A stretch of DNA of 64,000 nucleotides. It comes from Conus ventricosus. Lineage: Eukaryota > Mollusca > Gastropoda > Neogastropoda > Conidae. Position numbers and translations under genes: made by a program. The notes beneath the pieces are model-generated. The model saw only the letters and a list, made by a program, of their open reading frames with translations. It ran no database searches and had not been told where the DNA came from. This document shows positions 26,376 to 63,162 of the stretch, in pieces. How positions within the stretch are numbered: position 1 is the stretch's first letter; the number at the start of each line of letters is the position of its first letter. The DNA lies in NCBI GenBank assembly GCA_018398815.1, contig CM031615.1:52468272-52532271 (forward strand). Direction: 5' to 3'.

Positions 26376-26565
26376 ATAAGATAAGATAAGATAATGTTTC
26401 TTTTAGCCCAGCCGACCGCAAAGGGCCACATCAGGGCTGTCACCACGTTAAAATCAACTCACCAGTCTTTAAAAAAAAAAAAAAAAAACTTTCACACATC
26501 TCTTTAAATGACATCGTCTAGAAACGCACCAGAAATTGCATTAAAAATCTTTCTTCCGTAAAATC
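26376..26565 (-). other. LINE 3' UTR with ATCTT-repeat tail
   Basis: Non-coding end of the LINE after the ORF2 stop at 26,566; includes an A/T homopolymer near 26,470-26,487 and the terminal pentanucleotide tail. Its match to 18,170-18,260 confirms the relation to the other copy. Confidence 0.85.
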
Positions 26566-26730: not shown

Positions 26731-26821
26731 AGAGAACAGTAAAATGTATGTTCTAGCTTTTTACTGCCCTCAACCAGTTTCGGGCAGTAAAAAGCTAGAA
26801 ACATACATTTTACTGTTCTCT
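26731..26821. repeat. Terminal hairpin palindrome, left end of element 2
   Basis: 91 bp: an outer arm AGAGAACAGTAAAATGTATG then TTCTAGCTTTTTACTGCCC, the 12-base loop TCAACCAGTTTC, and an inner arm that is the reverse complement except for one extra T. A stem of about 39 bp would form on either strand. Confidence 0.95.
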
Positions 26822-26936
26822 GACAAGTAACACTTCAACAATGATAATCTATCACACATTTTTTCAATAAATAGCGATTTTTTACAAACAAACATACTGT
26901 GTAGGATTATCCGTTTTCAATACTAATTTACTAAAC
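26731..26936 (+). repeat. Left terminal inverted repeat of element 2 (206 bp)
   Basis: Matches 42,343-42,548 reversed, base for base as far as I can see, with no indels. The inner 55 bp encode the last codons of the ATPase. Confidence 0.93.
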
Positions 26937-36800: not shown

Positions 36801-37270
36801 AGTTTTGTTATAGATATCCTACTGACGACATCTATAAAGACATGGAATAGAAGTGGCTAAAGGGCATGCGGGATGGTATGACACATCTGATTACCCTAAA
36901 GATTCGCCTTTGCATTCAACCGTTAACAAGAAGGTTTAGGAAAGATGAAGGACGAATTATCTGGAGGGTGATTAAGGAGTTTTATGGTTTAAGGTCGAAA
37001 ATGTACAGTATTTCTAGCCAGGAGAAAACCATTAAGAAAGCAAAGGGAATATCTCGCAGTGTTGTGCAGTCAAACATATCGCATGACAACTACAAAGAAG
37101 CATTGTTCAATAAACAGACTTTTCATCATGACAACGTAAAACTACGATCTAATTTACATGAGATCAACACAACTGTTGTAACAAAGAAGTCATTGGATAG
37201 AACAAAGACTAAACGAGTATTTGTTAATCCAGAGTTTTCATATGCGATTGGACACTGGAGAACAGCATAA
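33860..37270 (+). CDS. Family B DNA polymerase (element 2); 5' two thirds smeared, 3' third clean
   Basis: Same protein as at 4,191. The N-terminal part is recognisable at 33,930-33,995 (IDPPVKVMLVF); 34.2-35.6 kb is corrupted. From 35,690 on it is clean: exonuclease III (YHDAYLMADVCLLADIFENY), motif A (LDANNLYGWAM, 36,043), motif B (LMNNSCFGKTMENPHKR, 36,505), motif C (LYTDTDSFVIDI, 36,785), and the end SYAIGHWRTA. Frame changes near 36,140, 36,290, 36,830 and 36,950 remain. About 1,130 codons, like element 1. Confidence 0.88.
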
Positions 37271-38016: not shown

Positions 38017-38966
38017 TTAAGCAACTGGAACTGTGTCTGGTGGGATTATCTGCAGTTCTTCCTCACAAAAGATCTTTGAGGAGCTGGTTGTTTTGTTGTG
38101 TCAGTTTCTCGTAAATAATACACGGGCGGATTCATCTTTACAATTCTTTTTATTTCATATGGATCACCACTCCAAACCGGATCGGTTGCCCTGATGCGAG
38201 TGTCCCCTTCTGCTTCCCCCGGTAAATAAGGTACCTTACTTTTAAACCAAACGGTAATAGTTTGCTGGTTGTACTGGAGTCTTCAGCAACATTTATTGTT
38301 TGTTTTTTGATTGCTTGTACTGGTTTTAGGCCTTTAAATTCTTCATTATTCATTGCGCGCAAAACTGAGGGCAGTCTTCTACCCATTCTGTGTTGCGAGA
38401 ATTGTCAATCAGCTCTCTGTGATACTGGTAGGAAAAAAGTCTTTCAGATAACTGTTTGTTAAAGTTTTCAACCAAAGCCTGTGATCTGTGAACTCCTGGA
38501 ATGCCTCTTTTAATAGTAACTCTATGTTTTAACAATAATTGATTCACTTGTCCTTTAAATTCTTTTCCATCATCGACTTGAATCATGCGAGGATAAGTTA
38601 GCTGGCCTCGTTGGTATATCAATTGTATGGCAACAGCAACAGCAGAAGCACTCTTTTGTGTTAACGGTTCGCATCTTTATATCTTGAAGCTATGTCAATG
38701 ACTGTGAGTGCGTACTTAAATCTTTTTCGTCTAATCGTATCATGGGGTAAATATAGAAGGTCCATTTGATGGGTGTCGTTCGGTATTGTGTTCCCAAAGT
38801 GTGGTCTCTGTATTCGTCTAGGCGCAGGTAAATAAATTTGCCAAATCGCTTGTTTTGATAACCATTTTTTTGCTGTTTCTTCACTAACTCCCCGCTGCTT
38901 GGCTTAGCTTTTAATTGCCGTGATTCCCTTCCAATATCCTTTTGGCGAATAATAGATTTTGTTCAT
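38017..38966 (-). CDS. Retrovirus-type (RVE) integrase (element 2), frameshifted
   Basis: Catalyses insertion of the element. Starts MNKIYYSPKGYWKG; HQMDLLYLPHD holds the first Asp; IQVDDGKEFKG the second Asp; QALVENFNKQLSERLF the Glu, so the DDE triad is intact. The C-terminal part has an SH3-like stretch (FGLKVRYLIYRGKQKG), DPVWSGDPYEIKRIVK and NPPVYYLRE, and ends PVA at 38,017. About 315 residues. No HHCC zinc finger is seen at the N-terminus. Frame changes lie near 38,900, 38,650, 38,370 and 38,190. Confidence 0.88.
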
Positions 38967-40589: not shown

Positions 40590-40611
40590 CACTTTAAGAA
40601 CTTAATAAATA

Positions 40612-42342: not shown

Positions 42343-42548
42343 GTTTAGTAAATTAGTATTGAAAACGGATAATCCTACACAGTATGTTTGTTTGTAAAAA
42401 ATCGTTATTTATTGAAAAAATGTGTGATAGATTATCATTGTTGAAGTGTTACTTGTCAGAGAACAGTAAAATGTATGTTTCTAGCTTTTTACTGCCCGAA
42501 ACTGGTTGAGGGCAGTAAAAAGCTAGAACATACATTTTACTGTTCTCT
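42343..42548 (-). repeat. Right terminal inverted repeat of element 2 (206 bp)
   Basis: Reverse complement of 26,731-26,936. Its inner end contains the last ATPase codons as an orphan copy, showing that the right terminus was copied from the left. Confidence 0.93.
42458..42548. repeat. Terminal hairpin palindrome, right end of element 2
   Basis: 91 bp, same as the left end when read from outside in, with the same loop orientation and the same one-base asymmetry between arms. Confidence 0.95.
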
Positions 42549-42553
42549 GCATG
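42549..42553. repeat. Target site duplication of element 2, right copy (GCATG)
   Basis: Pairs with 26,726-26,730. LINE sequence resumes here (TGACATGGAATACACCACGG). Confidence 0.88.
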
Positions 42554-45500
42554 ACATGGAATACACCACGGAGCTTCTTCACTCTTTAAAAGGTAAGAAT
42601 GGGTAAAATACGAATGGCCGGTGTGCAGCCGGCACAGAACCGTTTCCTCTTTACGACCTCCTGACATAGATGGGAGGAAGTCCTTAAGGTTTGGACGGAT
42701 CTGAAAGAGTTTGTTACTCGTCTGTGTGTTCCAATCCTCCTGCCAGAGGTCTCTCACATAATCGTTAATTTAGTTTCACATCTGAGCAGGGGATATAAAC
42801 GTTGGACAGTTTCTCTCTTGTGGCGTTCTTGGCTAAACGATCAACCATTTCGTTCCCGCCGATACCAACATGACCAGGAACCCAAGCAAGAGTAATGTTG
42901 TAACCGTCCGCCTTCAACTTGCTAAAAAGTTCAGAAAAAAGTAAAAGTTCTGGATGCTGAAGGTTGCGGCCAGCTATGGCCTCCAAAGCTGACAGCGAAT
43001 CCGACAGAACCAGAAAGTCCCTCTTCGAAGAATGCGAGATTATCTTCAAAGCCAAAACCAGAGCGGTAAGTTCAGCAAAATAGACAGAAGCATCGGAATG
43101 AATATGTTCCAACAGTATCTGAGAAGGAGCCCCAGGGCAGTAGGCTGCACAGGCCACTCCGTCTTCAGACTTGGAACCGTCAGTGAAAACTTTTTGACAG
43201 GATGGGAATTTGGAACAGAGGTCAACATACAATGCCTTGTACACCAGAGAGCTGGTAGACTCTTTGCGAAAAGCTGCGAGGTCGAAACAAATCTCTGGTG
43301 TGAAAAAGGTCCACGGAGGTTGATCCGGAAACTTGGAAAAATCGGACACAACTCCTAGGTCTAGACCTGCATTCCGCACGTGAGGCCGCATACGAACACC
43401 AAACGGCGGAATACATTTCGGGTTGTTTTCAAACTTACTTTGGAACGGAGGGTCAAAGACACAGTCATAGGCAGGATTCTGCGGTTCTGAGAACAGTCGG
43501 ATATAATAATTCAAAGACAGTTTCAGCCTGCGGTTGGACAGTGAAGGTTCACCCGCCTCTGCGTACAGGCTGTACACAGGGGTGGTGCGGAACGCTCCAA
43601 GACAGAGACGAAGCCCTTGATGGTGGATAGGGTCCAAGAGTTTGAGGTAAGACGATCTTGCGGAGCCGTAGACAGCACAACCGTAGTCCAGTTTAGAACG
43701 GACCAGGGCTCTGTAGAGGTGCAACAAAGTTTTCTTATCAGCGCCCCAGTCGGTGTGCGCTACGACCCGCAGAATATTCAGTGCTTTCTGGCAAGCAGTT
43801 TTGAGGTTTTTAATATGGCTGAGAAAGTTAAGTTTTTGGTCAAAAATGACTCCCAGAATTTGGCCTCTTTAACAGCTGGAATGGGAGATTTCCCTACTTG
43901 AAGTTCAGGATCTGGAAAAAAAACTGACGGAAATTATGAAAGTGAATACACTGCGTCTTTGTTGGAGAAAAGGTTAAACCGTTTTCATCTGCCCACCGAT
44001 GGATTTTATCTACGCAAAGCTGGAGCCTGCGCTGGACACTCGGGTACAGGCTTCCAGTTGCGTAGACAGCAAAATCATCCACAAACAATGAGCAGTCTGA
44101 ACCCTGCTGAACTGATTGAACAATGTTGTTGATTTTAATACTAAAGAGGGCAGGAGACAGTATGCTCCCCTGTGGAACACCCAACTCCTGCTCGTGGACA
44201 TCAGAGAGAGTGGTGCCAACCCGGACCTGAAACTGTCGTTCTGCCAAAAATTTTTGAATAAAAAGCGGAAGATGACCTCGAAAACCCAGATCGTGGAGAT
44301 CATGAAGTATCCCCGACTTCCAGGTGGTATCGTAGGCCTTCTCCAAGTCAAAGAAAATTGCCACTGCATGCTGTCTGTTCAAAAAAGCGTTCCGAAGTGT
44401 AGATTCCAGACGAATCAAATGGTCAACAGTAGTCCGATGTTTGCGGAAACCACACTGTTCTTTCGCCAAAAGGCCATCGGTTTCGAGTTTCCACATGAGC
44501 CTAGCATTGACCATTTTCTCCATCAATTTGCAGACACAGCTGGTCAAAGCTATGGGACGGTAGTTGGATGGATTAGAAAGATCTTTTCCAGGTTTGGGGA
44601 TGGGAATAATGAGGGCTTTCCGCCAAGAGGGTGGAAAGAAACCTGTAGTCCACACATGGTTGTATACCCGTAGCAGTATGTTCAGACCTTCTTGTGGAAG
44701 ATGTTTCAACAGTTGATAATGAATTTCATCCATACCTGGAGAGGAATCGCTGCAAGAACGTAAGGCAGATTTCAGCTCGTTTAACGTGAAAGGAAGATTG
44801 TAGTCTTCCATGTTGTCGGACGAAAAGTTGCAGGGTGATTTTTCTTTTAGGGCTTTGTTTTTGACAAAAGTGGCTGATTTGTTAGAAGGGGAGGAATTCT
44901 TTTCAATGGTTGAAGCAAGCAGATTAGCAACTGCTTTTTTGTCTGTTATTAAAGAGTCCGAAAACTTGAGATGGTTCACAGTGGGACAGGTGTTCTTCCT
45001 TTGATTTTCTTAATGATGTTCCACACTTTTTTCTTGGAAGTTTTCGATGTCAGCCTGGAGCAGAAACTTCTCCAGGACCGACGTTTACTGATTTTAAAAG
45101 TGTATCTCGATTTGGCACGGAGTTTCTGATGGGCTCGAGCGTTGGGACCCGAAGGTCGTTGGTATACCTGACGCTGAGCCCGTTTTCGAACTTTGGAAAT
45201 TTGATGGCAGTCTGAATCAAACCAGGGTGTTTTTGGCATTTGAAGTTTATCGGAAGACACTGGAATACAAGCTTTAGCACACTTGATTACAGTGTTAGTC
45301 AGTGATTCTGCTGGGTCCGGACTCTGAAGAAAATCAGCGTCCTGGAATGCCTTAGAAATAGTGGCTGCAAATAGATTCCAATTTGCTTTCTTATAATTTA
45401 AATGTTGAGAGACAGAGACGTGTTCAGTTATTACAGGTTGTAGAAGGACAGGGAAATGGTCACTTCCGTGCAGATCGTCATGGACAGACCACTCATAGTC

Positions 45501-46085
45501 CAGGACCAGCGAGGGGTCACAAACCGACAAATCTAAACACGAAAGTGAACCTGTGGAAGAGTGGAGGTAAGTTGCAGATCCGTCGTTCAGACAACACAAA
45601 TCTAAATCCGAAAGGACATCCTCAATTAGCAGACCTCTGGATGACGTACTGACACTACCCCAAAGAGGATTGTGACCGTTAAAGTCACCCAACAGCAAAA
45701 AAGGTCGAGGAAGTTCTCTTATCAGACTGACAAGGTCCTGACGACAAACCGGGACAGAAGGTGGGAGATAAAGGGAACAGATTGTCACAGTCTTGTGGAG
45801 AGTGACTCTCGCAGCTACAGCCTGAAGGGAGGTAGACAGAGCGACAGGACTATACAACAAAGTTTTGTGTAGGAGAAGGGCAACACCGCCCGACAGTCCC
45901 AACGTGGATGGTTGTGCAGGTTTTGAAAGAATATTAAAGCCAGAAAGAGTAAAGGTCTTCTGGCTTTGAATTTGAGTTTCCTGAAGAGCTACGACGGAAG
46001 GTTTTATAGATTGACACAGAAGCTGCAGCTCCTCGAAGTTGGAATTTAGTCCACGGATATTCCAATGGAATATTGTACTATCCAT
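42549..46085 (-). CDS. LINE ORF2: APE endonuclease, reverse transcriptase, RNase H (main part)
   Basis: Starts MDSTIFHWNIRGLNS (46,085). Endonuclease: LQETQ, LLGDFNGHNPLWGS, DDLHGSDHFPVLL. RT: SSPGMDEIHYQLLKHLP, NPSNYRPIALTSCVCKLMEK, FFDLEKAYDTTWKSGIL, GVPQGSILSPALFSIKIN and the catalytic SLFVDDFAVYA (Val in place of the usual Ala). RNase H: VFTDGSKSEDGVA, FAELTALVLALKI, LSDSLSALEAI, WVPGHVGIGGNEMVDRLAKN, with all catalytic residues present. Only frame changes near 44,985, 43,900, 43,760 and 42,770. It is cut at 42,549 by element 2 and continues at 26,730. Confidence 0.92.
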
Positions 46086-46166
46086 GGTGCAGAGGGTGAA
46101 AAGGAGAGAGATCAGGTCATCTCCTCCTCAACATCTGCGTCCAATGGAGTGAATTGTTGGTTAGTT

Positions 46167-47450
46167 TCACTGGACTGTTATGGTCTTCAGACTGCTGGCA
46201 GACTTGCCAACAGGTGAAGAAGGAGGTCTGGATTTGGGAGACGGTGGAGGCTTCTTCCTCATCTCCACCATCTCCACACTGGGTTGAACTCCCTTGCCCG
46301 CACGGGCACTGGACAGAGGAGTTCGAGGGGGAATTGCTGGTTTTTTAATCTGCCCAGCAGCAGATGTTGTAGACTGCTGGGCAGTCTGAGGGGTGGCTGA
46401 TGTTTTGCCTCCACCAGGGGCAGTCAATTTGGTTTGGAAGGTGGTGGACCTGCTTCCACCAGAGCTGACAGTTCTTCCTTGCAGTGTCTTCGAAAACGTA
46501 AAGTCATCAGTCTGACAGCAGACTGATCGAGTGGGAACTGTGGGAACTTTCTTTACAGCCGAAGCATAGGAAGAGGCTGTCGGCGTCTGACTGCCCACAA
46601 CCTGCTTGCGGGCCTCAAAAAAGGAAATTTTCTTTTCAGTTTTTATTCTTTGAATGGCGGATTCCTGAATCCAAAGAGGACAGTTTCGTGAAGAGGAGGG
46701 ATGGTCGCCACCGCAGTTAGCACAATGTGCCGGATCTTGACACGGCCCATCATGGGTTGCCTTGTAGCAAACACCACATACTTCTTGCCCTGAACAGCGG
46801 TCCCTGACATGGCCAAACTTCTGGCACCTGAAGCACCTCAACGGGGACGGCACATACAGCTGAACACGAACATTCAGTTAACCAACTTTGATGACCGGAG
46901 GCAGCACAGGGTTGCAGAAAATCAGAAAGAGGGTGTTGGTGGCCACTCTTTCTGCACCCTTCTTTACAGTCACCCTGCGCACCTCCGTCACACCCTGGGA
47001 TGCCAGCTCCGTTTTGATTTCTGCCTCTGAGACACCTGATAAATCCCGGCAGCGAATCACGCCTTTCGATGAATTTAACTGTTTGTGGGGAGTTACCCTG
47101 ATCTCCCTGTCCACTAGTTTAGTTGCCTTCAGCAGCTGTTCAGATTGTTTTTGTGATTTACATTGAATTAGAAACGAGCCGTTCCTCAACCTCTTGATGG
47201 ACCGAGGGTCACCTGCTAAAGCTTGAAAGCCCTTCTGTATGGCGAAAGGGCTCAGAGCTGAAAGGGGTCTTTCCTGCTCCGTCCCTTCCATCACGAGCCA
47301 GGAAGCCCAGAATCCTGTCCTCTGTCGTACCTCCGTATCCGAATCGCTATCTGAACCAAAATTCCCTGAAATAGGGGATGCAGCCTTCCTCTTCTTTTTT
47401 GGGGGGGGGAAGTTTTTAGAAAAAGCCATATTTATTGTATTAAGTTTCAT
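46167..47450 (-). CDS. LINE ORF1: gag-like RNA-binding protein, one internal stop
   Basis: Starts MKLNTINMAFSKN, with PPPKKKRK (nuclear-signal-like), an Asp/Ser tract, a middle domain (KLVDREIRVTPHKQLNSSKG) and zinc knuckles CFRCQKFGHVRDRCSGQEVC and CANCGGDHPSSSRNC. The frame is open throughout except a TAA at 46,878-46,880 where the other copy has TAC. Proline/serine-rich C-terminus. Ends 81 bp before the ORF2 start. Confidence 0.9.
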
Positions 47451-48169
47451 CTCCCCCTTACCCACCCACCTTGGAGTCCAACTAAGGGGCCAGGGCCAAG
47501 AAACCAATGTCTTGACCCCTTCCAGGCTTCGGGAGAGATATACGACAAACAGAAACTACCAACCCTATCCCCCTGATCATGCTCAACTCCCGGGGACAGA
47601 GAGCTGAGCACTGCAGGGGTTAACTTGGCCAGCAGGGGAACTGTCTGTCTTGACCCAGCCCCAAGAAGGGGAGCCGATTAGTACACCCGGGCCAAAGTGT
47701 ACTCCCTGTCTAGGAGAGGTCCGAGCCAAAGTGATGTGTTGAGAGCGCTGGCCCTCTCAATCACCAGGATCTCATTCCCCTCCGACACAGGTCGCACCGC
47801 ACGGCAAACGCGGCGGATCTTAAGGAGACCACAGAGAGAAAAGGAGTGTGGAAAAGAAGACTTGAAGGGGAGACGAAGATAGAAAAGGGCCAAATAAGAA
47901 AGGCAGAAAACAAGAAAAGGAGAAAGGCGGGTTACTTTTAGTCAGGATCCTCACCCTTAGCCTATCTGACATGGGAAGCCCTACCAGGGGCATCAACTCC
48001 TTACCACGTTACGCTTAGGCCAGACAGCATCTTGGCTTTTCGGACCTAGAAGCAGTTTGAAAAAAAAACCAGCCTATCTCCGAGTATTGATGCCCCCGCC
48101 AGCAAAGCCTAAGGGATCACTGGACCGCGCAAGCCCTCCGACCACGACAAGGTCGCAACCCCCGGAGGG
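47451..48169 (-). other. LINE 5' leader
   Basis: Non-coding head of the LINE, presumably with its internal promoter. Its inner 230 bp match the other copy from 13,226; the rest has no match there, so that copy is 5'-truncated or diverged. Confidence 0.75.
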
Positions 48170-50105: not shown

Positions 50106-50192
50106 AGAGAACAGTATAATGCCGGTACTAGCTCAACCGCCCTCAACCAGTTTCGGGCGGTTGACCCTAGTACCGGCATTATACTGTTCTCT
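50106..50192. repeat. Terminal hairpin palindrome of element 3
   Basis: 87 bp. Arms AGAGAACAGTATAATGCCGG, then TACTAG and TCAACCGCCC; loop TCAACCAGTTTC, as in element 2. The two arms match each other apart from 2-3 bases beside CTAG. The distal 10 bp, the CTAG and the loop are shared with element 2; the rest of the stem is different. Confidence 0.95.
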
Positions 50193-50230
50193 GACAAGTA
50201 AGACTTCAATAACCAAAAAAATAACGATTA

Positions 50231-51153
50231 GAAAAAGAAACACCCGAAGGTGCTGGGGAGGACCCAGAGAAGCACTGTCTTCACCTGCCTTTAGAGCAGC
50301 CCTGTACCACCCTTGGAGGCCTGCGCTGTGTTGACGATGGGTACAGGCACGCGCAGGACACTCCATTAAGATATCAAGGGACATAACTGCTCCTGAACAG
50401 AGGTAAATCAGACTGCAGGATGCAACTCATAACAGCCTTAAAATAGCATCCCCCATGGGTGTACCAGCCCGTATTTCATGACTGCAGAGCCCACCGGCGA
50501 GAAACACCACCCTCCAGCTGCCGAGCACACCCCACAGACCCAACCACCCATGCCCACGGACAGATGAAGAGAGTGCCACTCCAGACACAGCCAAGCTTTC
50601 GCCATACGGTCTTATGTGCCCTCAAGAGAGAATCCAAAGTTGTAGTCTTTCCCACTGTCAACAGGACTTTCCCTGTGGTCAGTGGGTCTTTCCTCACCGT
50701 CACTGGACCTTTCTCCAGGGTCAGCCTAGTTAGCAAGAGAAAAAGAACACCCGAAGGTGCTGGAGGACCAGAGAGCACTGTCTTCACTGCCTTTAGATGC
50801 AGCCCTGTACCACCCTTGGAGGCCTGCGCTGTGTTGACGATGGTACAGCACGCGCAGGACATCCATTAAGATATCAAGGACATAACTGCTCTGAACAGAG
50901 TTAATCAGATGCAGATGCATATACAGCTTAAATAGCATCCCCATGGGTGTACACCGTATTTCATGACTGCAGAGCCCACGGCGAGAATCACACCCTCCAG
51001 CTGCCGAGCACACCCCAGACCAACACCCATGCCACGGACAGATGAGAGAGTGCACTCAGACACAGCAAGCTTCGCCATACGGTCTTATTGCCCTCAAGAG
51101 AGAATCCAAATTGTAGTCTTTCCATGTCAACAGGACTTCCACTATAACGATTA
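50231..51153. mobile_element. Insertion in the TIR of element 3: about 500-bp unit in two tandem copies
   Basis: Unit 50,231-50,736 repeats as 50,737-51,143 (3' end missing). ATAACGATTA flanks it (50,221-50,230 and 51,144-51,153), a likely 10-bp target duplication; removing it restores the TIR. The second copy looks like a homopolymer-compressed version of the first. No protein recognised; perhaps a SINE-like or non-autonomous element, doubled in nature or by the assembly. Confidence 0.65.
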
Positions 51154-51315
51154 TCTACAAACAAATACTGTGTAGGATTGTCTCTTTTCAATACTAATTT
51201 ACTAAACTTTTCAGATTTTAGTTTTTGTTAATCCTGCGTATTTCCTGATCATTTCATAACATCATTTTCACGCTACATTCATCAAATGCGTCTCTGTCTT
51301 TCATGTGAAATAAAT
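51154..51315 (-). pseudogene. Orphan ATPase 3' tail in the TIR of element 3
   Basis: Similar to 26,882-27,060 (end of the ATPase) with several single-base losses. As in element 2, the terminal repeat at the gene-B end carries a copy of the ATPase tail, here about three times longer, so the TIR of element 3 is at least about 287 bp. Confidence 0.8.
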
Positions 51316-51699: not shown

Positions 51700-51975
51700 G
51701 AGACACTTGACACCTTCACCCCAAGTCACCCCAAGTCCTTAATTAAGTCTTAATTAAGTTCTTAATCAAGTTACCCCAAGTTCTTAATTAAGTTTTTTAA
51801 TCAAGTCACCCCAAGTTCTTAATTAAGTTACTCTAAGTTTCTACTTAAGTCACCTCAAGTTCTTAATAAGTTCTTGATCAAGTCACCTCAAGTTCTTAAC
51901 TTAAGTTACCTCAAGATTGTAATTAAGTCATCCTCTAAGTACAACCAAGTTCTTATTCAAGTCAACTTATAATTA
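51700..51975. repeat. Tandem repeats next to gene B, element 3
   Basis: Imperfect units on CAAGTTCTTAATTAAGTCACC. Reverse-complement relative of the 40,612-40,900 array. Confidence 0.9.
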
Positions 51976-51995
51976 TTTATTAAGTTCTTAAAGTA

Positions 51996-52480
51996 TTATT
52001 GCATCTGAAATGGATCAAAATGATCTTTTGTTGTTGGCGGTTCTGGCATGCTTTTGTGTTCGGCTTCTGTATTTAGTGGTTGAGATTTTTTTGACTGCTT
52101 TGGTTTTTGCTGTCTTTGTTTATATATTTTATAACCGTAATAACCGCCCCCAGCAGCAATACCACCAAAAATGACAATTGCTTTAAGAAAATTCCATGAA
52201 GACTTTGGCGGTGTAGGCAACCCTGTTGTTGTTGTAGGTCTTGAATCAACTTGTTCTGGTGTTTTTATAGCTGGCGTTGAAACAACTGGCTGCGGCTCTA
52301 GCACTTTTTCATTATGAGTTTTATGTGCTTGTAATTTTGTTTGTTTGTTCCACTCTGCAAATTTTTTTTCCCGGCCGCAATCCCGCCCAGGTGGGGCGGT
52401 TTTTTTCGGGCCCCGCTTTCTCCACCTGTTTTCAATGTTTTTGATTTGTTTCTGCTGATTTTCTGGGGCCTCGGTCTTTT
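51996..52480 (-). CDS. Gene B: basic/membrane protein ending FDPFQMQ (element 3)
   Basis: The last 103 residues are clean: GLPTPPKSSWNFLKAIVIFG, the GGGYYGYKIYKQRQQKPKQ stretch and FDPFQMQ, almost identical to element 2. The N-terminal half runs into the smeared region past 52,350, where the KNPGRV stretch is barely recognisable. Confidence 0.7.
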
Positions 52481-52489
52481 TTTAAGGGA

Positions 52490-52950
52490 AACAAAACCTA
52501 TTTAAATTAAAAGAAATTTAAACCCCCACGATTACCCGGCGACAATAATTTTCCAAATCGTAATTTTAGATAAATTTGGGAGCTCAAAGGGACTTTGTTA
52601 AAAACTGGTTCCTGCTTTAAATCAAAATTTAAAGTCTTTTCAAAATTCAAAAATTGGCGAAAAATTTTTTAAATAGTTTAGTGTCCCAAACTAAGGCCCT
52701 TTTCCCCCGGGACACTTTTTACCATTCTTGACCCAGTTGCCCCTTCATCCCTGTTATTTACTTTAAAATTGTCTTGTGGAAACATCTGTTGAATCTGTTC
52801 TTGCTAAATTTCTTTTTTCCGAGGAATGTTTTTTTTTTCCGCTTTCCCGCCAAAGAATAGTTTTTTTTTTTTTTTGGCATAAACGTTTGGTCATCAATTT
52901 GGATCATTTGAAATTCATAAGTTCAAAAAGGTTTAGGCTCCCCCTGTAGC
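52490..52950 (-). CDS. Gene A, smeared copy (element 3)
   Basis: Similar at nucleotide level to 39,672-40,140 in reverse (for example ATCTGTTGAATCTGTTCTTGCTAA near 52,780). Frames are lost, so the frame-change site cannot be tested here. Confidence 0.55.
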
Positions 52951-52984
52951 TGTAGTAGATCATCCCCCTTTCATGTTTTATTTT

Positions 52985-53255
52985 TAAATAAAAATTTTTT
53001 ATTTTATTTTTTAAAAAAAGCCCCAAAAAAAAAACTGTTCCCAAACCTTGTTTTACCTTTTCTGTGTTTTTGGAGGCCCAAGGGGTTTTGGATACACAAG
53101 GCTTGGTAAAACCCTTTTTAAAAAATAAAAAGGGAAAGATCGGGGAAAGCTGGCTTTGAGGATTAAAGCAAAGCTAATTGCTGTTTTAACAGCTTCATTT
53201 GTACAAAAGATTTTCTGTTAAGCAAGGAATAATTCCTTACAGTATCAATAAAAAA
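52985..53255 (+). CDS. Small membrane protein, smeared copy (element 3)
   Basis: Counterpart of 39,405-39,634; the end (AAGCAAGGAATAATTCCT..CAGTATCAAT) at 53,220-53,250 is clear. Confidence 0.5.
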
Positions 53256-53283
53256 ATTTTAAAAAAAAACCCTTTTTAAAAAA

Positions 53284-53725
53284 TGGTTCATTCGAATGAG
53301 GGATGGGCGGCGCAGTAGGGGAATGCGCTTGCTTTTACCCGGAAAAGAAATTTACGCGTTTAGAAAAAACTGCGGGATGACGGTGAGAAAAAAAGACATA
53401 ACAAAGTATGGAGCAATTTGCCGCGCACAAGAACCCTTGAAAAGCAGAGAATTGGCAGTTAATTTTTTTAACGACAAACTAAAAAAAAAAAAACCAATTG
53501 GACTTGCAGCTTACACTTTTAAAAAGAGGGTTGACCCAAGCAAAAAAAGGGAATTTTTTATCTTGTAACAGGAAAAAAACCCAAATCGTGACTTTTGCCC
53601 CCCCAAAAATTTTTTTTTCAGTGACTTTTTAAACCATCAAAAAAAAACAAAAGTTTGCAAAAAAATCGGGTTTATCGTCTTTGGTATGCCCGTTGTGTAT
53701 TTTGTTGCGCTAATTTGGTTTTGAA
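53284..53725 (+). CDS. AFSGSNY membrane/coiled-coil protein, smeared copy (element 3)
   Basis: Counterpart of 38,973-39,379; FFNDKLK and AYTFKKRVD near 53,465-53,535 and a C-terminal ATCGTCTTTGGTATGCCCG stretch match. No continuous frame. Confidence 0.55.
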
Positions 53726-53730
53726 TAAAA

Positions 53731-54745
53731 ATGAACAAAATCTATTATTCCCCAAAAGGATTTTGGGAAAGGGGAAACCCACGGCAAAAAAAAAGCTAAC
53801 CCAAAGCAGCGGGGGGTAGTGAACAAACAGAAAAGGGAAGGGTTTAAATCAAAAACAAGCGTTTTGGGAAAATTTATTTACCTGTGCCTAGCAAATTTCG
53901 AGACCACACTTTGTAAAATAAAATACCGAACGACACCACCCAAATGGACCTTCTATATTTCCCCCAAATGATTTAAATTTGACGAAAAAAGTTTAAGTAC
54001 GCCTCACAGTCTTGACATAGCTTCTAGTAAAAAGATGCGGGAACCATTAAAACAAAAGAGTGCTTCGCTTTTTGCTGTTGCTATACAACTGATATCTAAA
54101 CGAGGCCCATTAACTTATCCTTGCATGATGAAGGGATGTTGGAAATAAATTTTTAAAGGGCCCAAAGTGAAATCAATTATTTTTTTAAAAACTTTGGTTT
54201 TTACCAAAAAAAGGGAGGCATTCCAGGAGTTCACAGTTCACAGGCTTTAGTTGAAAACTTTAAAAAACAGTTATCTAAAGGGATTTTTTTCCCTACCAGA
54301 AACCAGAGAGTGATTGACAATTCTCGCAAAAACCAGAATGGGTTAGAAGCTGCCCTCATTTTTGGGGCGCGCAAAAATTAATGAAAAATTTTAAAAGGGG
54401 TTTAAAACCCGGGTACAAGCAATAAAAAAAACAAAAAAAATTTAAATGTTGCTAAAGGGACTCAGTACAACCAGCAAACTATTACCTTTTGGTTTTAAAA
54501 AGAAAGGTCCCTTTTAAACCCCCGGGGGGAAGCAAAAGGGGGACACTCGCATCAGGGAAAACAGATCCAGTTTGGAGTTTTGGGATCCATATGAAAAAAA
54601 AAGAATTGAAAAAAATTGAATCTCCCCGTGTATTTTTTGGCGAGAAACTGACAAAAAAAAACAACCCCCTTTCAAAGTTTTTTTGGGAAAGGGAAAGAAC
54701 TGCAGATAATCCCGTCTTTCCCCGTTCCAGCTCCCCTTAAATTTA
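53731..54745 (+). CDS. RVE integrase, smeared copy (element 3)
   Basis: Starts MNKIYYSPKG. Matches to element 2 at QMDLLYF (53,935), the HRFGIPGVH-type region near 54,220 and QALVENFK (54,243). The catalytic first Asp and the Glu context can be seen; the middle is damaged by the poor consensus. A clean copy cannot be inferred. Confidence 0.65.
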
Positions 54746-54766
54746 AATTTTTTAAATTTACTTTAA

Positions 54767-55075
54767 ATGGAAGCTAGAAGGAAGCCCCAGAACGATAAAA
54801 AGAATAAAAAAATTAAAGGGAGAACTTGGAATGAAAAGGGAATTATTGATACAATTCTATTTTTTAAAATTAAAACTTTTGGAGGATTTTCGGCAAAAGG
54901 GGAAATGCATCCAGTCCCCTAAAAACCCCAAATTCCCAAATTTTGTTCATAGAAAAGGGGAAAAGAATATCTTAAAATTAATAAAAAAAGGCACCCAACA
55001 AACAGGGAAAATAAGCGAATGGTTAATGATATAAAAGGCTTAAAATTTAAAATTTTAAGGGAAAAAATTTAAAAG
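54767..55075 (+). CDS. Small element protein, smeared copy (element 3)
   Basis: Counterpart of 37,700-37,987, starting MEARRKPQNDKK. A single copy here, so the tandem duplication is private to element 2. Confidence 0.5.
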
Positions 55076-55084
55076 AAGGAATGT

Positions 55085-55596
55085 AATTTCCCCGTTCCCC
55101 AAAGTGTCCAATTCCCACATGAAAACTCTGGTTTAAAACAAAAAACCGTTTTGTTTTGGGGTGCTGCCCAAGGGGATTTTTTTTTTAAAAAACGGGTTGT
55201 GTGTTTTCCATGAAAGATTAGTTTCGTTTTTTTACTTTAGTCATGATAAAAAGTATGTTTATTGAAAAATGCTTCTTTGTAGTTGTCAGGGGATATGTTT
55301 GACTGCACAACATGCGGATATTCCCCTTTTTTTTTTTTTTTTTGGGGGGGGGAAAAAAATTTTTTTAAAAAAACCCCCCCCCCCCCAAAAAACCTTTTTT
55401 TCCCCCCCCTTTTTTTTTTTAAAAAAAAAAGGGTTTTTTTTGGGCCCCCCCCCCCTTTAATTTTATTCCATTTTTTTTTTTAAAGGGTTTTAAAAATTTT
55501 TTAAAAAAAAAAAAAATTTTTTTTTTGGAAAAAAATTTTTTTTTTTAAAAAAAATTTAAAAAAATTTTTTTAAAAAAAAAAAAAAATAAAAGGGCC

Positions 55597-55628
<32 letters not shown>

Positions 55629-56337
55629 CCCCAAAAAATTTTTGGGGTTTTTTTTTGGAAATTAAATTTTTTTCCTTTTTTTTCCCAATTTTAAATTTTG
55701 GGGTTTTTATTTTTGTTTCCCCTTTTTAAAATCTTTTTTTTTTTTTTTAAAAATTTTTTTTTTTTTTGGGGGGGGGGGGTTTTTTTCAAAAAGGAAAAAA
55801 CCCCCCCTTTTTTTTTTTTTTTTTTTAAAAAAATTTTTTTTACCCGGGTTTTTTTTTTGGGGTTTTGGGTTTTTTTTTGGGGGTTTTTTAAAATTTTTTT
55901 TTTTTTTTTTTATTTTTTTTAAAAAAAACCCCTTTTTTTTTTAGTTTTTTGGGTTTTTTAAAAATTTTTTTCCTTTTTAAAAATTTTTTTGGGGGAAAAT
56001 TTTTTTTTCGAATTGGGGCCCCCCCCCCAAAAAATTTTAAATTAAAATTTTTTTTTAATTTTTTGGTTTTTTTCTTGGGATTTTGGGGGGGCCCAAAAAA
56101 AAGGGGCCCCCCCCGGGGTTTTTTTTTTAAACATTGGCCCCGAAATTAAATTTTTTTTTCCCCCTTTTTTTTTTTTGGGGGGGAAAAGGGGGCCCCGGGG
56201 GGGTTTTTTTGGCTTTTTTTCCCCAAAAAACCAAAACAAAGGGGAAAAAAAAAATTTTTTTTTGTTTTTTTTTGGGGGGGGTTTGGGGGTTTTTCCCTTT
56301 GGGCCTTTTTTTTAAAACCAAAGGGGAAAAGGGGTTT

Positions 56338-56370
<33 letters not shown>

Positions 56371-56512
56371 AAAAAAAAAGGGGGGGAAAAAGGGGGGGGG
56401 GGGGGGGGGGAAAGGGGGGGAAAAGGGGGGGGGGGGGGAAAAGGGGGGGGGTTTTAAAGGGGGCCCGGGGGTTTTGGGGGGGGGGGGGGTTTGGGGGGGG
56501 GGTTTTTTGGGT

Positions 56513-56550
<38 letters not shown>

Positions 56551-56990
56551 TTTTTTTTAAAGGGGGGGGGGGGGGGGGGGGGCGGGGGGGGGGGGGGGGG
56601 GGGAAAAAGGGGGGGGGGGGGGGGGGGGGGGGGCCGGGGGGGGGGGGAAAAAAAAAAAAGGGGGGGGGGGGGGCCGGGGGGGGGGGGGAAAAAAAAGGGG
56701 GGGGGGAAAAGGGGGGGAAAGGGGGGGGGCCGGGGGGGGCGGGGGGGGAATTTTGGGGGGGGGGGGCCCCCCCCCCCCCCCCCCGGGGGGGGGGGGGTGG
56801 GGGGGGGGGGGGGTTTGGGGGGGGGGGGGGGGGGGGGGGGGGTGGGGGGGGGTTTTAAAAAAGGGGGGTTTTTGGGGGGGGGAGGTTTAAAACCCCTTTT
56901 TGGGGGGGGGGGGGGGGTTTGGGTGGGCCGGGGGGGGGGGTTCCGGGGGTTTTTCCCCGGGGGGGGGGGGGGGGCCTTAAACGGGGGGTT

Positions 56991-57026
<36 letters not shown>

Positions 57027-57112
57027 CCGGGGGGGGGGTTGGGGGGGGCCCGGGGGGGGGGTTGGGGGGGTTTGGGGGGGGGGGAAAAAAATTTTTTTTG
57101 GGGGGGGGGGGG

Positions 57113-57148
<36 letters not shown>

Positions 57149-57161
57149 GGGGAAAAAAAAA

Positions 57162-57197
<36 letters not shown>

Positions 57198-57572
57198 CGG
57201 GGGGAAAAAAGGGGGGGGAAAAAAAAAAAGGGGGGGGGAAAAGGGGGGGGGGGCCTTTTTGGGGGGGGGGGGGGGGGGGGGGGAAGGGGGCCCGGGGGGG
57301 GGGGGGCCCCGGGGGGGGGGGGGGGGGGGGTTTTTTTTTTTAAAACCGGGGGGGGCCCCCCCAAAAGGGGGGGGGCCCCCGGGGGGGGGGGGGGGGGGTT
57401 GGTTTTTGGGGGGGGGGTTTTTTTTTTGGGGGGGGGGGGGGGGGTTAAAAGGGGGGGGGGTTTTTGGGGGGGGGGTTTTTTGGGGGGGGGAAGGGGGGGG
57501 GGGGGAAAAGGGGGGGGGGGGTTTTTTTGGGGGGGGGGTTTTTTTTTTTTTTGGGGGGTTTTTTTTTTTTTT

Positions 57573-57646
<74 letters not shown>

Positions 57647-58250
57647 TTTTGGGGTTAAAAAAAAAAGGGTTTTTTTTTAAAAGGGGTTTTTTAAAAATTT
57701 TTTTTTGGGAATTTTTTTTCCCTTTTTTTTTCCCCGGGGGGGGAAAAAAAATTTTTTTTTTTAAGAAAATTTTTTTTTTTTAAAAAAAAAATTTTTAAAC
57801 GCAAAATTTTTTTTTGAGTTCCTTTTTTTTTTAAATTTTATTTTTTTTTTTTTTAAAAAAAAAATTTTTTGGGTTTTTTTTTTTTTTGGGTTTTTTTTTG
57901 AAAGGGGGGCCCTTTTCCCCCCCCCGGGGAAATTGGGCCAAAAAACAAATTTCCCCGGGGAAATTTTTTTTTAAAATTATTTTTTTAAAAAAAATTTTTT
58001 AAAAAAAAAAATTTTTTTTTTTTTTTTTTTGGGGTTTTTTTGGTTTTTTTTGGGTTTTAAAAAATTAAAAATTTTAAAAGGGGGTTTTTTTTTGGGGGTT
58101 TTTTTTTGGGGTTTTTTCCCCAAAAAAAAGGTTTTTTTTTAAAAAAAAAAAAAGGTTTTTGGAAAAGGGTTTTTTTCCCCCTTTTTTTTTTAACCCTTTT
58201 TTTAATTTTTAAATTTTTTTTTTTAAAAACTTTTCCCTTAAGCATTCCTT
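55085..58250 (-). CDS. Family B DNA polymerase position (element 3); only the 3' end readable
   Basis: 55,085-55,330 matches the end of PolB (reverse complement of the YAIGHWRT and SHDNYKEALF regions of element 2). From 55,331 to 58,250 the sequence is reduced to runs of T, A, G and C. The length left (about 2.9 kb) fits the rest of PolB, and the next gene begins on time at 58,364, so the block most likely stands for PolB with a failed consensus. Confidence 0.6.
55331..58250. other. Homopolymer block, consensus failure
   Basis: Almost only homopolymer runs, with a G-dominated centre 56,340-57,540. Not a plausible natural sequence. It starts and ends inside element 3 where the related element has ordinary PolB code. 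Confidence 0.85.
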
Positions 58251-58363
58251 CAAAAAAATTCGTCCGGTCCTTCATATATCTCAGCCATGTTGATTTTCTT
58301 TTTCTTTTCTAACTGAAAATATTAATTTAAATTAAAAACAATACAACGACTCCAAACGTCGTC

Positions 58364-59069
58364 TTAATCAGAATCAATATCAACGGTCTTTTTGTGCTTG
58401 GACTCATAAACTAAAGTATAAACGCCCTTTGATGTTGTTAATGTGAGCTGTTTAGAACAGAGTTTAATGTCTCGTTTACTTTTTTTAGACATTCCTTTTT
58501 TATCTGCTCGGTCGGGCTGTTGAGAAAAACTTGCCCTTGCCTTTTTTTGAAGATCAAACTTTTGTCTTTTATAGTCATCAAAATCGGCCTGTAAACGACT
58601 AAATTCTTCATCCGTGATGTTTGAGTCAACTAGTGCTTTATTTATTGTCAGTTTGAACGAACTAAGTTTAGCTGTTATTAGTTGAACCATAGCTGTGTGC
58701 TTTTGGAGTTTAGTTTTTAATTTTTTTGCTAGCAGCACTTACAGCTAATGAACACAGGCCAAGAGTTAAAGACAAACCGCCTAGAGGTAAAGCTGCGGGC
58801 GCACCTACACCTGTTGCTAAGAGGCCTACACTTGTTCCTGCTGATAGAGCACTTATAGTCGATGCTCCAGTATTAACATATGTAACAGCATTAAAAGCAG
58901 CAGAATACCTTCGTTGATTTGCTGTATTTTGAGAGGTCTTGCTCTAGTTTTTGTTGCATTTGTGTAATGTTGGTTAATCTAAAGGTTTTTAAATGTCAGG
59001 GGTTTCTACTATCCCTTCTTTTGGCGACTCTGGTGCTGTAGGCACATTTGGATAAACCTGAACAGACAT
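58364..59069 (-). CDS. Membrane/coiled-coil element protein (element 3)
   Basis: About 230 residues from ATG 59,069: MSVQVYPNVPTAPESPKEG, a coiled-coil piece (QMQQKLEQDLSKYSKS), a glycine/alanine-rich hydrophobic middle (GASTISALSAGTSVGLLATG), then a charged helical tail (NITDEEFSRLQADFDDYKRQ) ending in Asp-Ser-Asp. Frame changes near 58,993, 58,920 and 58,725. No enzyme motif. Hydrophobic middle with helical flanks could be a membrane-inserting virion protein (inference). Confidence 0.6.
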
Positions 59070-59092
59070 GCTTTTTTTAAATAAAAAATAAT

Positions 59093-60358
59093 TTAGTATT
59101 GTATATCTTTTAATCTGTTATCTTGAATATTCAGCTGCGCATCATATATTAAAAACAAATGTACATTAACTGGTTTATCGCCATCTTTTTTTATCAATTT
59201 GAATGTTTATTCCGTCTTTAACAGTTCTCCCACTTCCATGCAACTGATTATCCTCTGTTGACCTTAGGTCAATCCGTAAACCGTATTTTGTTGTTAAATA
59301 TCATCAAGCCTAACGCTGTGAAGGTGTAGATCTTAGACACAAGGTCTACTGTTGGACTTCTACACCTCCCACCCCCAAACAATTTTCTTATTTCGTCAAA
59401 ATGATGATAAGGTCTAAGCCCGCTAGCGTAGATTTGGTTAGGACTACCCTCAATCGAACATGTACTTTCGTTATTTTAGGATTAGTAAACTTTTCACTTC
59501 CTCTTTTGAATGGTTCTTCATCTTCACACAGCAATAAAATACCTTTAAGCGATCTTGCTGTGGCACTAAAACTAAAATTCCATATAGCGTCATTCTTGCT
59601 TCTGGGATATGTTGTATGATGAATCACTTCTTTCGTAATATATTGCTAATTTTGACTGATATTGTTGCTCAATCAGCCTTGCTAAATTAGGGTTGCTAAC
59701 AACGTCAAACTCTAACGAGATGTCAGAAATGCTGTACTTTGCTTCGGTGTCTGATGATCTGATAACACGTTTGTATTCATTAAAAGTTAGTTCATATGAC
59801 AATCTGTCTTTTAATGCTCCTTGAAAGTATGGCGCATGCGCTTTTAACAACTCAAAATCTAAGGGAATAGAAAAAGCGATTTCCATACGCAAAATTTACA
59901 GCTATATACTTTTTGCCGTCTTTAGCATCTTCAGCGCCTATTCTATGTTTTAGCGCTTCTTCATTTTCGATTCCTTGAAACGCAAAGTCAGCCCTTTCAT
60001 TCGTGGTTAGCCATAGATCAGAATAGGTTAAAAATATGTCTGCATTGTGTAAAGAAAATATTTCTTGCCCCTCAAGTTTTATAGAAATTTTCTTAACGAT
60101 TGCCCGTCCCAGATTCTGGATAACTGTCCTGTTTAGGTCTGTTGCTGATTCGAGTTCTATTTTGAAAGTAAGTCGCGCAGAGCCTGGCACAAATCACTTC
60201 ATCTGCTCCTAGGTCTGGAAATTTGACAGTAAGAATTTGATCTGCATCAATAGTAGATGGATTATTTGGAACAGTAATATTCCGTTTATTTCCCTTCACG
60301 CCTAAGGCTCTTTCAGTCTTCTATGCGGGTCAAGAATTGAACCATATGCTTGTGACAT
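59093..60358 (-). CDS. Putative major capsid protein (double jelly-roll type), frameshifted (element 3)
   Basis: About 420 residues from ATG 60,358 (MSQAYGSILDPHRR) to IQY at 59,093. Beta-rich segments alternate with loops: DADQILTVKFPDLGADEVIC, KISIKLEGQEIFSLHNADIF, RLSYELTFNEYKRVI, YSISDISLEFDVVSNPNLAR, WNFSFSATARSLKGILLLCE, HVHLFLIYDAQ-like end. Position beside PolB, ATPase and integrase genes, size and pattern suit the hexon-like capsid protein of Polintons/adintoviruses, although shorter than many. Frame changes near 60,310, 60,180, 59,890, 59,620 and 59,280. The assignment is by pattern, not by search. Confidence 0.55.
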
Positions 60359-60396
60359 TTTTTATAAAACAAAATAAAAAGTTAATTATTTAAAAC

Positions 60397-60851
60397 ATGG
60401 CAGGAATTGAAGGTGAAGAAGATTATGATGTTTTTGATCCTGGAGACGACATGAGTGAAATGACCCCTTTGACACAGCATCGCTCGGCGCTCTCATGGCA
60501 GAGTGAATTAACAGAACTTAAGGTTAGATCATTGTACCGAAGTTTAGGTCAAGAACCTCCCGAATTTATAGACCCTAATGATTTTGAAGTAGAAGATGAC
60601 CATTTGTATGTGAAAAACGATCAAGGACAAGCTGTTCAGCTTACAACTAAACCAGACCCATTAAAGTTTTTAGCCCTGAGTACAATTAGACAAAGACTCA
60701 GTGTAAGCGTACAAAATCGTCTTGGCATTTCCAAACCAAAATTAGATAGGGATGCAGTTGCTAAACTTCAAAACACACAACAGGAACTCCCAACAGCTAA
60801 CCAAATACAAAACTTTTCAAAATGGAGTGACTGAAGGCGGCGAACGAAGCA
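60397..60851 (+). CDS. Acidic element protein, interrupted near its end by a foldback insertion (element 3)
   Basis: MAGIEGEEDYDVFDPGDDMS, QSELTELKVRSLYRSLGQEP, VEDDHLYVKNDQGQAV, LSVSVQNRLGISKPKLDRDA. About 150 residues, acidic at the start and helical later. One frame change near 60,800; the other frame reads TFQNGVTEGGERSK up to the insertion at 60,852 and would continue for a few codons after 62,221, overlapping the next gene. Divergent from the capsid gene (38 bp between starts). No family recognised. Confidence 0.65.
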
Positions 60852-62221
60852 AGATTAGGAATAGAGTTTTAGAACTTACCGCCAATGACATTGACAAACA
60901 AAGCACAAGACAAGACACGATGCATTTCAACCACTTGGGTCTTCATCAGGCGAAAAAATAAATCACATTTAACATGTGGGACAGTACAAACTACGAAAAA
61001 CGAAAAAAGAATGAAAAATGACTCATCTCTTATTGTCCATGAAGGCGGAAATGACATGAGGCCAGGGGATTATGGGAGAGGAAACAGAGGGGGGGGGGGG
61101 GGGTTGCGTCAGGGGAGGTGTGTGTGTGTGATATGATAGGGTTGTGTGTCTAGTTTATTGGGATGGTGTGATATCTTTGTGATGGTTGTGGTAATGGTGG
61201 ATAGGAAAAAAAAAAGAATAAAAAAAAAGAAAAAAAAAAGAAAGGTGTGTGTGTGGGGGGGGGGGGGATTTAAGGGGAAGGATCAAAACAAAATTAAGAT
61301 TAGATAGATGGAGGGTTGCTGTAACTACTGTATGAAGTGAGTGAAGGGGATGTGGTGGTGGTGTATGTAAGTGTGTGTGTATGTGTGTGTGTATGTGTGT
61401 GTGTTGGTAGGGGATATTGCCAACTGATGTGGAAGAGGTGGGTATGTGTGTTTGGTTATTGTTGGATATTGATGCCTTGGGGGTGTAGTGTGCCCAGTTT
61501 GGAAATGAGATGGGATTCTTGAGTTGTGCGTTCATGATCGCACAACTCAAGAATCCCATCTCATTTCCAAACTGGGCACACTACACCCCCAAGGCATCAA
61601 TATCCAAGAATAACCAAACACACATACCCACCTCTTCCACATCAGTTGGCAATATCCCCTACCAACACACACACATACACACACACATACACACACACTT
61701 ACATACACCACCACCACATCCCCTTCACTCACTTCATACAGTAGTTACAGCAACCCTCCATCTATCTAATCTTAATTTTGTTTTGATCCTTCCCCTTAAA
61801 TCCCCCCACACACACACACACACACACCTTTCTTTTCTTTTTTTTTCTTTTTTTTTTTTCCTATCCACCATTACCACAACCATCACAAAGATATCACACC
61901 ATCCCAATAAACTAGACACACAACCCTATCATATCACACACACACACCTCCCCTGACGCAACCCCCCCCCCCCCCCCCCCCCCTCTGTTTCCTCTCCCAT
62001 AATCCCCCTGGCCTCATGTCATTTCCGCCTTCATGGACAATAAGAGATGAGTCATTTTTCATTCTTTTTTCGTTTTTCGTAGTTTGTACTGTCCCACATG
62101 TTAAATGTGATTTATTTTTTCGCCTGATGAAGACCCAAGTGGTTGAAATGCATCGTGTCTTGTCTTGTGCTTTGTTTGTCAATGTCATTGGCGGTAAGTT
62201 CTAAAACTCTATTCCTAATCT
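60852..62221. mobile_element. 1.37-kb foldback element: near-perfect inverted repeat with 8-bp centre
   Basis: Arms 60,852-61,530 and 61,539-62,221 are reverse complements except for homopolymer lengths; centre TTCATGAT. Termini AGATTAGGAATAGAG...CTCTATTCCTAATCT. The arms hold G runs, A runs and GT-rich tracts but no gene; the short mirrored frames are by-products. It splits a gene at a point where element 2 has no insertion. Only a 2-bp CA duplication is visible. Confidence 0.9.
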
Positions 62222-62233
62222 CAAATACAAAAC

Positions 62234-63021
62234 ATGGAACTTGAAGTTTTAAATCAATCAGCAGATGAAATAATAAATGAAATAGATGCAAAAACCATTT
62301 TTTCCGAAAAAACAGTACCAAAAACAATTGATGTTTCTTCATTGCCTATGAGAGAACTATCAGCCCTTAATCGTACTTTAAGAACCTTCAGAGGCGAATT
62401 AATAAACAATTTAGCAAAACTGAGTGAACTAGATGAGCATATAAAAAGAGAAAAAGAAAAACTCGTTGAGGCTGATGACGCCAACTTAGGGATGATATTA
62501 AAGAAAGAATAACCCAAAGACTAAATAATCTTGAACAACTGAGATCAGCAAGACTAGAAGCGTTGTCTACTAACCGAGAACAATTACGAACTCAAGTGAG
62601 CAGAATAAGAGAAACTATCCAAAGAATTTTATATGAAAACACAACGCTAGCAGAACGAATACGAACACTGTTTAGAGAGCAAGGAGTCACATTAGCAAGC
62701 GTTATAACAGCTTTAGGTTTTGCAATAAGTACACTGGTGATGGCTATTACAGGCGGCGGTGGTCAAAGCCTAGTGCCTCCACCGCCATCACCTCCATCGC
62801 CGCCTGATAAATCATGGGTAAAAAAACAGCTTGATCATCTTGCGGGTTCATTAAAAAAAATTAGCCAGTAAAGCCATGGACGCTTTACCGGGTATATTAG
62901 GGGTGTTGTTAGCTGGCTTTTGTCTACTGCAAGCAAAGTAGTTGGCTTTATGGCCGAGCACTTATGGACATTAGTTCTCTTAATAGTTGGGTTAATTTTT
63001 AGTAAGATAAAGACCAAGTAA
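62234..63021 (+). CDS. Coiled-coil/transmembrane protein with Pro-rich linker (element 3)
   Basis: About 260 residues: MELEVLNQSADEIINEIDAK, a long heptad-like helix (EQLRTQVSRIRETIQRILYE), a membrane segment (VTLASVITALGFAISTLVMA), a Gly run, PPPPSPPSPP, a Lys-rich helix and a second hydrophobic end (GFMAEHLWTLVLLIVGLIFS). Frame changes near 62,500, 62,870 and 62,905. Heptads, membrane helix, linker and hydrophobic tail suggest a virion membrane-penetration or scaffold protein; this is inference. The ATG lies just right of the foldback insertion, so its promoter may be displaced. Confidence 0.65.
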
Positions 63022-63162
63022 TCCTAGGCCAGTTAATCCAAAAACAAGTGCTGTCTTTTCATATTCATGGTCATTATTTTTTTTGACTTCGTGTTCTTCA
63101 ACGGCCTTCGGGCTTTGGCCACGGGATTGGATGGCTTATTCTTTGGGGGTCAACTTGTTTGT

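Follow-up and report, generated by a model that had tools for sequence, protein, structure and literature searches.

Parvoviruses, which use Rep, end their linear genomes in imperfect terminal palindromes with an internal asymmetry and alternate the orientation of these hairpins. Polintons (Mavericks) carry a PolB gene, an rve-type integrase, terminal inverted repeats (TIRs) and 5′-AG...CT-3′ ends on a scale of 15 kb, and usually make a 6-bp target duplication; the protein priming assumed below is taken from this family. In Streptomyces a telomere-associated protein binds the hairpins of a protein-primed linear end, and the terminal hairpins of parvoviruses have been compared with these telomeres (passages of PMC4513846). 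Poxvirus telomeres are mismatched hairpin termini in which structure counts over sequence, and flip and flop forms both occur there (passages of PMC8956199). Bidnaviruses combine a Polinton-derived PolB with terminal inverted repeats, but these repeats form no parvovirus-type hairpins (passages of PMC4061559). For vertebrate Mavericks, the consulted text of PMC8097293 mentions no terminal hairpin and lacks the word hairpin. No description of terminal hairpins of Polintons was found in the titles, abstracts and passages searched, which included passages of PMC6431247, PMC4061559, PMC8097293, PMC12747079, PMC12220804, PMC8268682, PMC4455052 and PMC2836005 but neither subscription journals nor the first papers on Polintons.

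Here we describe Polintons of the cone snail Conus ventricosus, found in a stretch of 64,000 nucleotides (the window), in which the outermost 86–97 bp of each end form a hairpin. The likeness to parvoviruses lies in the imperfect, internally asymmetric palindrome at the end of a linear genome; here, however, the polymerase is PolB and the orientation is nearly fixed (96 of 98 copies), and the latter also separates these ends from the poxvirus telomeres. PolB and integrase, size, TIRs and the AG...CT ends are those of Polintons; the 5-bp target duplication differs from the usual 6 bp, and the covarying terminal hairpin has no counterpart in the passages covered on vertebrate Mavericks. By analogy, the nearest working model is the Streptomyces telomere, with its linear ends, its palindromes folding in a single-stranded overhang and its protein-primed end patching (PMC4513846, in the passages covered). 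A terminal palindrome conserved by pairing is what a structured telomere of this type leads one to expect, and such a palindrome was found. Streptomyces ends, however, are bacterial, have several palindromes and use Tpg and Tap, while the element described here is eukaryotic and terminates in one palindrome.

Table 1. Features of the window that bear on the Polinton ends (strand given as + or −; a point where no strand applies)
Feature	Coordinates	Strand	Remarks
Left terminal hairpin, first Polinton	26731..26821	+	loop as in the other two
Right terminal hairpin, first Polinton	42458..42548	−	identical to left hairpin (edit distance 0)
Left TIR including hairpin	26731..26936	+	26727-26936 matches 42553-42343 at 99%
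Right TIR including hairpin	42343..42548	−	42553-42343 matches 26727-26936 at 99%
Target site duplication GCATG, left	26726..26730	.	directly outside left hairpin
Target site duplication GCATG, right	42549..42553	.	directly outside right hairpin
PolB pieces, broken, three open stretches	35631..37267	+	Pfam, PHROGs, homologues
Integrase core piece	38353..38676	−	Pfam rve E 0.0063, below cut-off
Non-LTR retrotransposon hosting first Polinton, 5′ part	42550..47583	−	RVT_1 E 6.3e-36, RNase_H E 2.1e-12
Same retrotransposon, 3′ part	26387..26730	−	matches 17937-18265 at 81%
Unoccupied insertion site in related retrotransposon copy	17937..17941	+	flank matches overlap exactly 5 bp
Second Polinton terminal hairpin, left end	50106..50192	+	hairpin also at 78 further loci
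Start of second Polinton inner TIR	50193..50232	+	inner motif as in other copies; broken by repeat insertion
Two tandem copies of ~0.45-kb repeat inside TIR	50230..51138	.	50230-50669 matches 50738-51138 at 90%
Second Polinton TIR region, continued	51144..51314	+	89% identical to 26871-27047
Second Polinton interior pieces	51828..64000	.	runs beyond window; other end outside

The hairpin of the second Polinton consists of an outer stem of 26 perfect base pairs (50106–50131 with 50167–50192), a 1×2 internal loop (50132 opposite 50165–50166), an inner stem of 10 bp (50133–50142 with 50155–50164) and a loop of 12 nt (50143–50154). Folded as single-stranded DNA it reaches −40.7 kcal/mol, against a mean of −8.2 in 200 dinucleotide-preserving shuffles, none of which did as well (z −14.6). 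Compared with 42458–42548, the stem differs and the opposite arm carries the matching changes, as the sequence-only reading of the window had reported; its observation that the loop points the same way in each of the three hairpins, with the element interior as reference, was equally borne out.

That reading had counted three separate elements. Two of the three are the inverted ends of one insertion: their hairpins are identical, face each other across 15.8 kb and lie within TIRs of 206 bp, with GCATG outside each. The sequence 42550–47583 matches 13240–17941, a related retrotransposon copy in the same window, in pieces. The flanking sequences make up the halves of a single retrotransposon, and their matches overlap by 5 bp at the unoccupied copy; the hairpins at 26731–26821 and 42458–42548 therefore terminate, on either side, a single 15.8-kb Polinton/Maverick inside a non-LTR retrotransposon. 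Three independent hairpin elements are thus ruled out. A hairpin belonging to the retrotransposon was rejected as well, the flanks being interrupted retrotransposon halves and the hairpin going with the Polinton TIR elsewhere. As the first two hairpins are identical and not independent, the window alone gives a single independent comparison of stems. Immediately outside the host retrotransposon, a single type of 35-bp tandem repeat occurs on either side (25762–26384 and 48170–48390), and on this basis the nest of Polinton and retrotransposon may sit within a satellite array.

Three pieces of the second Polinton, 51828–54989, 58366–60394 and 62363–64000, match 37785–40755, 31625–33742 and 29349–31056 of the first, inverted, at 77–79%. 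The two repeat copies that break its TIR differ mainly by single-base indels. Its region from about 52000 to 58000 is rich in homopolymers and probably poorly corrected, so that open frames there are unreliable, and 60852–62221 is a near-perfect palindrome of 1.37 kb (97%), possibly an assembly artefact of a fold-back read. A third, fragmentary Polinton occupies 5151–10630; its PolB fragment at 5151–5894 matches DNA_pol_B_2 (E 0.0014), its PolB also has an Endonuclease_7 match (E 1e-5), and no terminal hairpin was found near it. At 703–1981 open stretches resemble, as judged by eye, a molluscan leucine-rich-repeat G-protein-coupled receptor.

From the likeness of its genes (PolB and rve integrase), together with its size and TIRs, we assign the element to the Polintons/Mavericks. 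Within the PolB region, 36243–36857 matches Pfam DNA_pol_B_2 below the Pfam cut-off (E 1.2e-4), and 35631–37267 matches a PHROGs DNA polymerase (E 2.4e-6) and has 1635 homologues. Among the top 12 homologues four are named, and all four come from another neogastropod, Nucella lapillus, with 85–88% identity over 46–64% of the query. The integrase homologue P0122, which is 54% identical over 84%, carries PF00665. In the other two Polinton regions, ten open stretches were compared with Pfam and yielded no matches to capsid, packaging ATPase or protease genes. The target duplication is 5 bp, against the 6 bp expected for a Polinton/Maverick; we take this as a variant and not as exclusion from the family, following the range of 5–6 bp given for Polinton-like viruses in passages of PMC12220804. 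PolB alone as query found no viral contigs. The single viral-contig relative, recognised by alignment (L129), has no hairpin in the part examined, where the contig end need not be the element end.

The genome (3.52 Gb) was searched by hairpin sequence, by inner TIR sequence and by PolB. Two hairpins served as bait for the first set, the best 40 each of 1148 and 516 first-look candidates being scored; 78 of these 80 loci were read, and the hairpin was present in all 78. Because a hairpin bait could favour hairpins, the TIR sequence inside the hairpin was used as a second bait (30 loci of 40 scored, from 779 candidates), and here the hairpin stood directly outside the TIR at 29 of 30 loci, the other one (L082) retaining its 3′ part only. 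The third set consisted of 20 stretches lying 5.1–6.6 kb downstream of PolB, hand-picked from 150 scored hits. Two read N; in seven of the 18 readable ones an AGAGAAC...GTTCTCT end lies beside TIR sequence, and five of these ends (L111, L114, L117, L126 and L128) have 21–26 perfect outer base pairs in new stems, while the other two (L113 and L120) pair poorly. Apart from L109, the stretches left over show no clear TIR and are uninformative. Four PolB loci without TIR were read 1.5 kb further; no end was found in three and one reads N. First-look candidates across the genome numbered 42,277 for PolB and 28,311 for the integrase, 150 being scored for each, and the Polinton with this hairpin end is very abundant in the genome. 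Loci closely related to the query are over-represented in the scored sets.

One contig holds 14 inverted end pairs. In 12 of them the hairpins are immediately flanked by a 5-bp target duplication, which in one case sits in a GT repeat and is little informative; the pairs L019/L038 and L031/L020 show none. End pairs other than the first Polinton lie 14.8–51 kb apart. The palindrome is the exact outer terminus of the element, abutting host DNA to the base, with the TIR continuing inward. Hairpins at the two ends of one element are 0–3 edits apart, where the median distance for all pairs is 21, and so all four arms move together.

For the comparison of arms we merged 97 copies, namely 76 from the hairpin bait (without L030, which is treated separately, and L006, which duplicates L005) and 21 added by the TIR bait. 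A gapped comparison was skewed by the inner asymmetry, which it forced into gaps (5.7 differences within against 4.1 between copies of the shorter type), and was replaced by scoring the ungapped outer 20 bp in 91 of the 97, six being left out for indels in the outer arm. The arms of one copy differ on average at 0.30 positions and arms of different copies at 3.89. No mismatch was found in 68 of the 91 copies, one in 20, two in 2 and three in 1. The 29 distinct stems comprise 580 cells, of which 563 are paired; 2000 shuffles gave a mean of 449 and a maximum of 471. Two to four Watson–Crick types occur at 12 of the 20 outer pairs, which takes at least 21 two-sided changes, and eight pairs need a transversion. 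On a FastTree phylogeny of 34 distinct stems, 37 two-sided changes fall at helix pairs, compared with a mean of 2.2 and a maximum of 6 for 19 shifted pairings. Nine of the 13 column pairs with the strongest corrected mutual information are helix pairs, and in normalised form the facing segments reach 0.91, 0.92 and 0.82 where all others reach 0.47–0.67. Facing segments are thus far more closely linked than neighbouring ones, and linkage follows pairing, not neighbourhood. The earlier claim that pairing rather than sequence is conserved therefore carries over from one comparison of stems, judged by the divergence within and between copies that it had itself proposed to compare, to a large sample of copies from the same genome, in whose sequences the covariation holds.

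The tree also suggests when the arms are coupled. On internal branches 24 changes are two-sided and 4 one-sided, and on terminal branches 13 and 14 (Fisher p 0.004, without L113 and L120). Ten of the outer stems are found in several elements, eight of them perfect and two with the same C·A mismatch; the remaining 14 mismatch cells over distinct stems all lie in stems found once. Two-sided change on internal branches, together with mismatches in single-occurrence stems, points to a coupling that is at work while the element multiplies and ceases once it has inserted. The counter-evidence that had been named against conserved pairing, unpaired substitution at neutral rates, thus appears, the shared C·A mismatch apart, only where the age of an insertion explains it.

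Palindromes can be homogenised by cruciform extrusion and mismatch repair, and the arms could have been evened out passively in this way in the chromosome, with no function. We regard this as most improbable, however, because mismatches stand unrepaired in the outer 20 bp of 23 of 91 inserted copies (at least 13 of the 23 include the shared one, the others being private), and because new stems are common to both ends of an element and to several insertions, which places the coupling before insertion. Pairing might instead be selected in a transcript, where the hairpin would act as terminator, in export or as a small-RNA trigger. The fold is stable on either strand and would allow this; yet among the 27 unpaired cells G·T accounts for 6, A·C for 14 (13 of them one shared mismatch) and other types for 7, so that there is no strong G·T excess, although G·T is the commonest private class. 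The outer edge of the hairpin, moreover, coincides with the DNA terminus and none of the open frames seen includes it, and the window matched no Rfam family at gathering score. A role in RNA is accordingly very unlikely in our view.

Two copies depart from the rule. Complementarity between the arms is poor in L113 (7 mismatches in 20) and in L120 (6 in 20); the fold of L120 reaches −10.1 kcal/mol, which 14 of 200 shuffles at least equalled. They form a subfamily that keeps AGAGAAC...GTTCTCT around middle stems of poor complementarity, the 3′ arm being common to both and the 5′ arm different. L109 looks like a degraded relative of these two, its arms poorly matched by eye. Adding L113 and L120 to the tree gave 35–37 two-sided changes under three settings, with shifted pairings giving up to 8; one-sided changes on internal branches then number 9–16 beside 22–24 two-sided ones.

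Nearly all stems keep the first 7 bp, AGAGAAC, unchanged at the tips of both arms, and the loop is nearly invariant. The invariant tips are what one would see if the inner arm were a second, inverted recognition end for the integrase, kept for integration only. Such a duplicated site leaves the pairing of the variable stem, positions 8 to 37, unrequired, and we give this explanation little probability.

Orientation relative to the TIR could be compared in 98 copies: 96 agree, one (L030) is flipped and one (L005, which has no recognisable TIR) is unclear. The absence of flip and flop claimed earlier thus describes the great majority and fails for L030. In this only clear flip (G000:C29, hairpin at locus position 1501–1590) the hairpin is 98.9% identical in inverted orientation, while the adjoining TIR is 91–93% identical to its relatives, which marks L030 as a true inversion and shows that inversion can happen. 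In L105 the apical loop is now self-complementary (TGAAACCAGTTTC), as though one half were a copy of its partner.

These copies bear on a rolling-hairpin or covalently closed hairpin telomere with concatemer resolution, like that of parvoviruses or poxviruses, in which one arm serves as template for its partner and the loop flips and flops. Copying of this kind would explain two-sided changes at once, transversions included (8 of the 12 variable pairs; at least 21 changes), and L030 as a true flip and the L105 loop would fit it. It should, however, give both forms, and one orientation holds in 96 of 98 copies; PolB and the integrase fit protein-primed Polintons instead, and general scans of the stretches matched no Rep/NS1 or resolvase. 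We consider such a telomere unlikely.

Our preferred reading, which we think probable by a modest measure, is that the hairpin is the structured DNA terminus of a presumably protein-primed Polinton, kept complementary during replication and decaying after insertion. In the linear replicating form, strand displacement by the element's own PolB would leave the terminal strand single-stranded, and this strand would fold back into the hairpin. AGAGAAC and the loop may be where a terminal protein, PolB or the integrase makes contact, the stem needing only to be double-stranded. A base change would be passed to the opposite arm before the next insertion, either by selection or by arm-to-arm copying with mismatch repair in the folded form. 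Once inserted, the hairpin would be ordinary chromosomal DNA and would decay without regard to pairing. The usual copying route would keep the orientation of the loop, and so would not be a routine terminal-hairpin transfer.

As for the sequence-only proposal of a hairpin end with one arm copied from the other, the palindrome is indeed the literal terminus of a linear mobile element, and selection and copying are both possible sources of the matching arms. The transversions and the self-complementary loop of L105 lean towards arm copying. The fixed asymmetries of the stem lean towards selection: the 1×2 internal loop, the unequal TT/AAA and the shared C·A mismatch all persist, whereas free and complete arm copying should erase them, which favours selection on structure or copying in short patches. 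A bolder version, which we put forward tentatively and hold to be doubtful, is that this animal Polinton lineage has true hairpin telomeres whose four arms are kept identical, within each replicating lineage, by arm-to-arm copying; it would then stand midway between Polintons with protein priming and DNA viruses ending in hairpins.

The replication of Polintons has so far been inferred from their genes. A base-exact terminus, present in very many copies and with dozens of natural stem variants, offers a direct handle on the function of the end, the variants naming the fixed bases (the first 7 bp and the loop), the bases for which only pairing counts, and the flipped form that is seldom seen. 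Through the Polinton ends of other snails, a link between protein-primed elements and viruses with hairpin ends can be put to the test.
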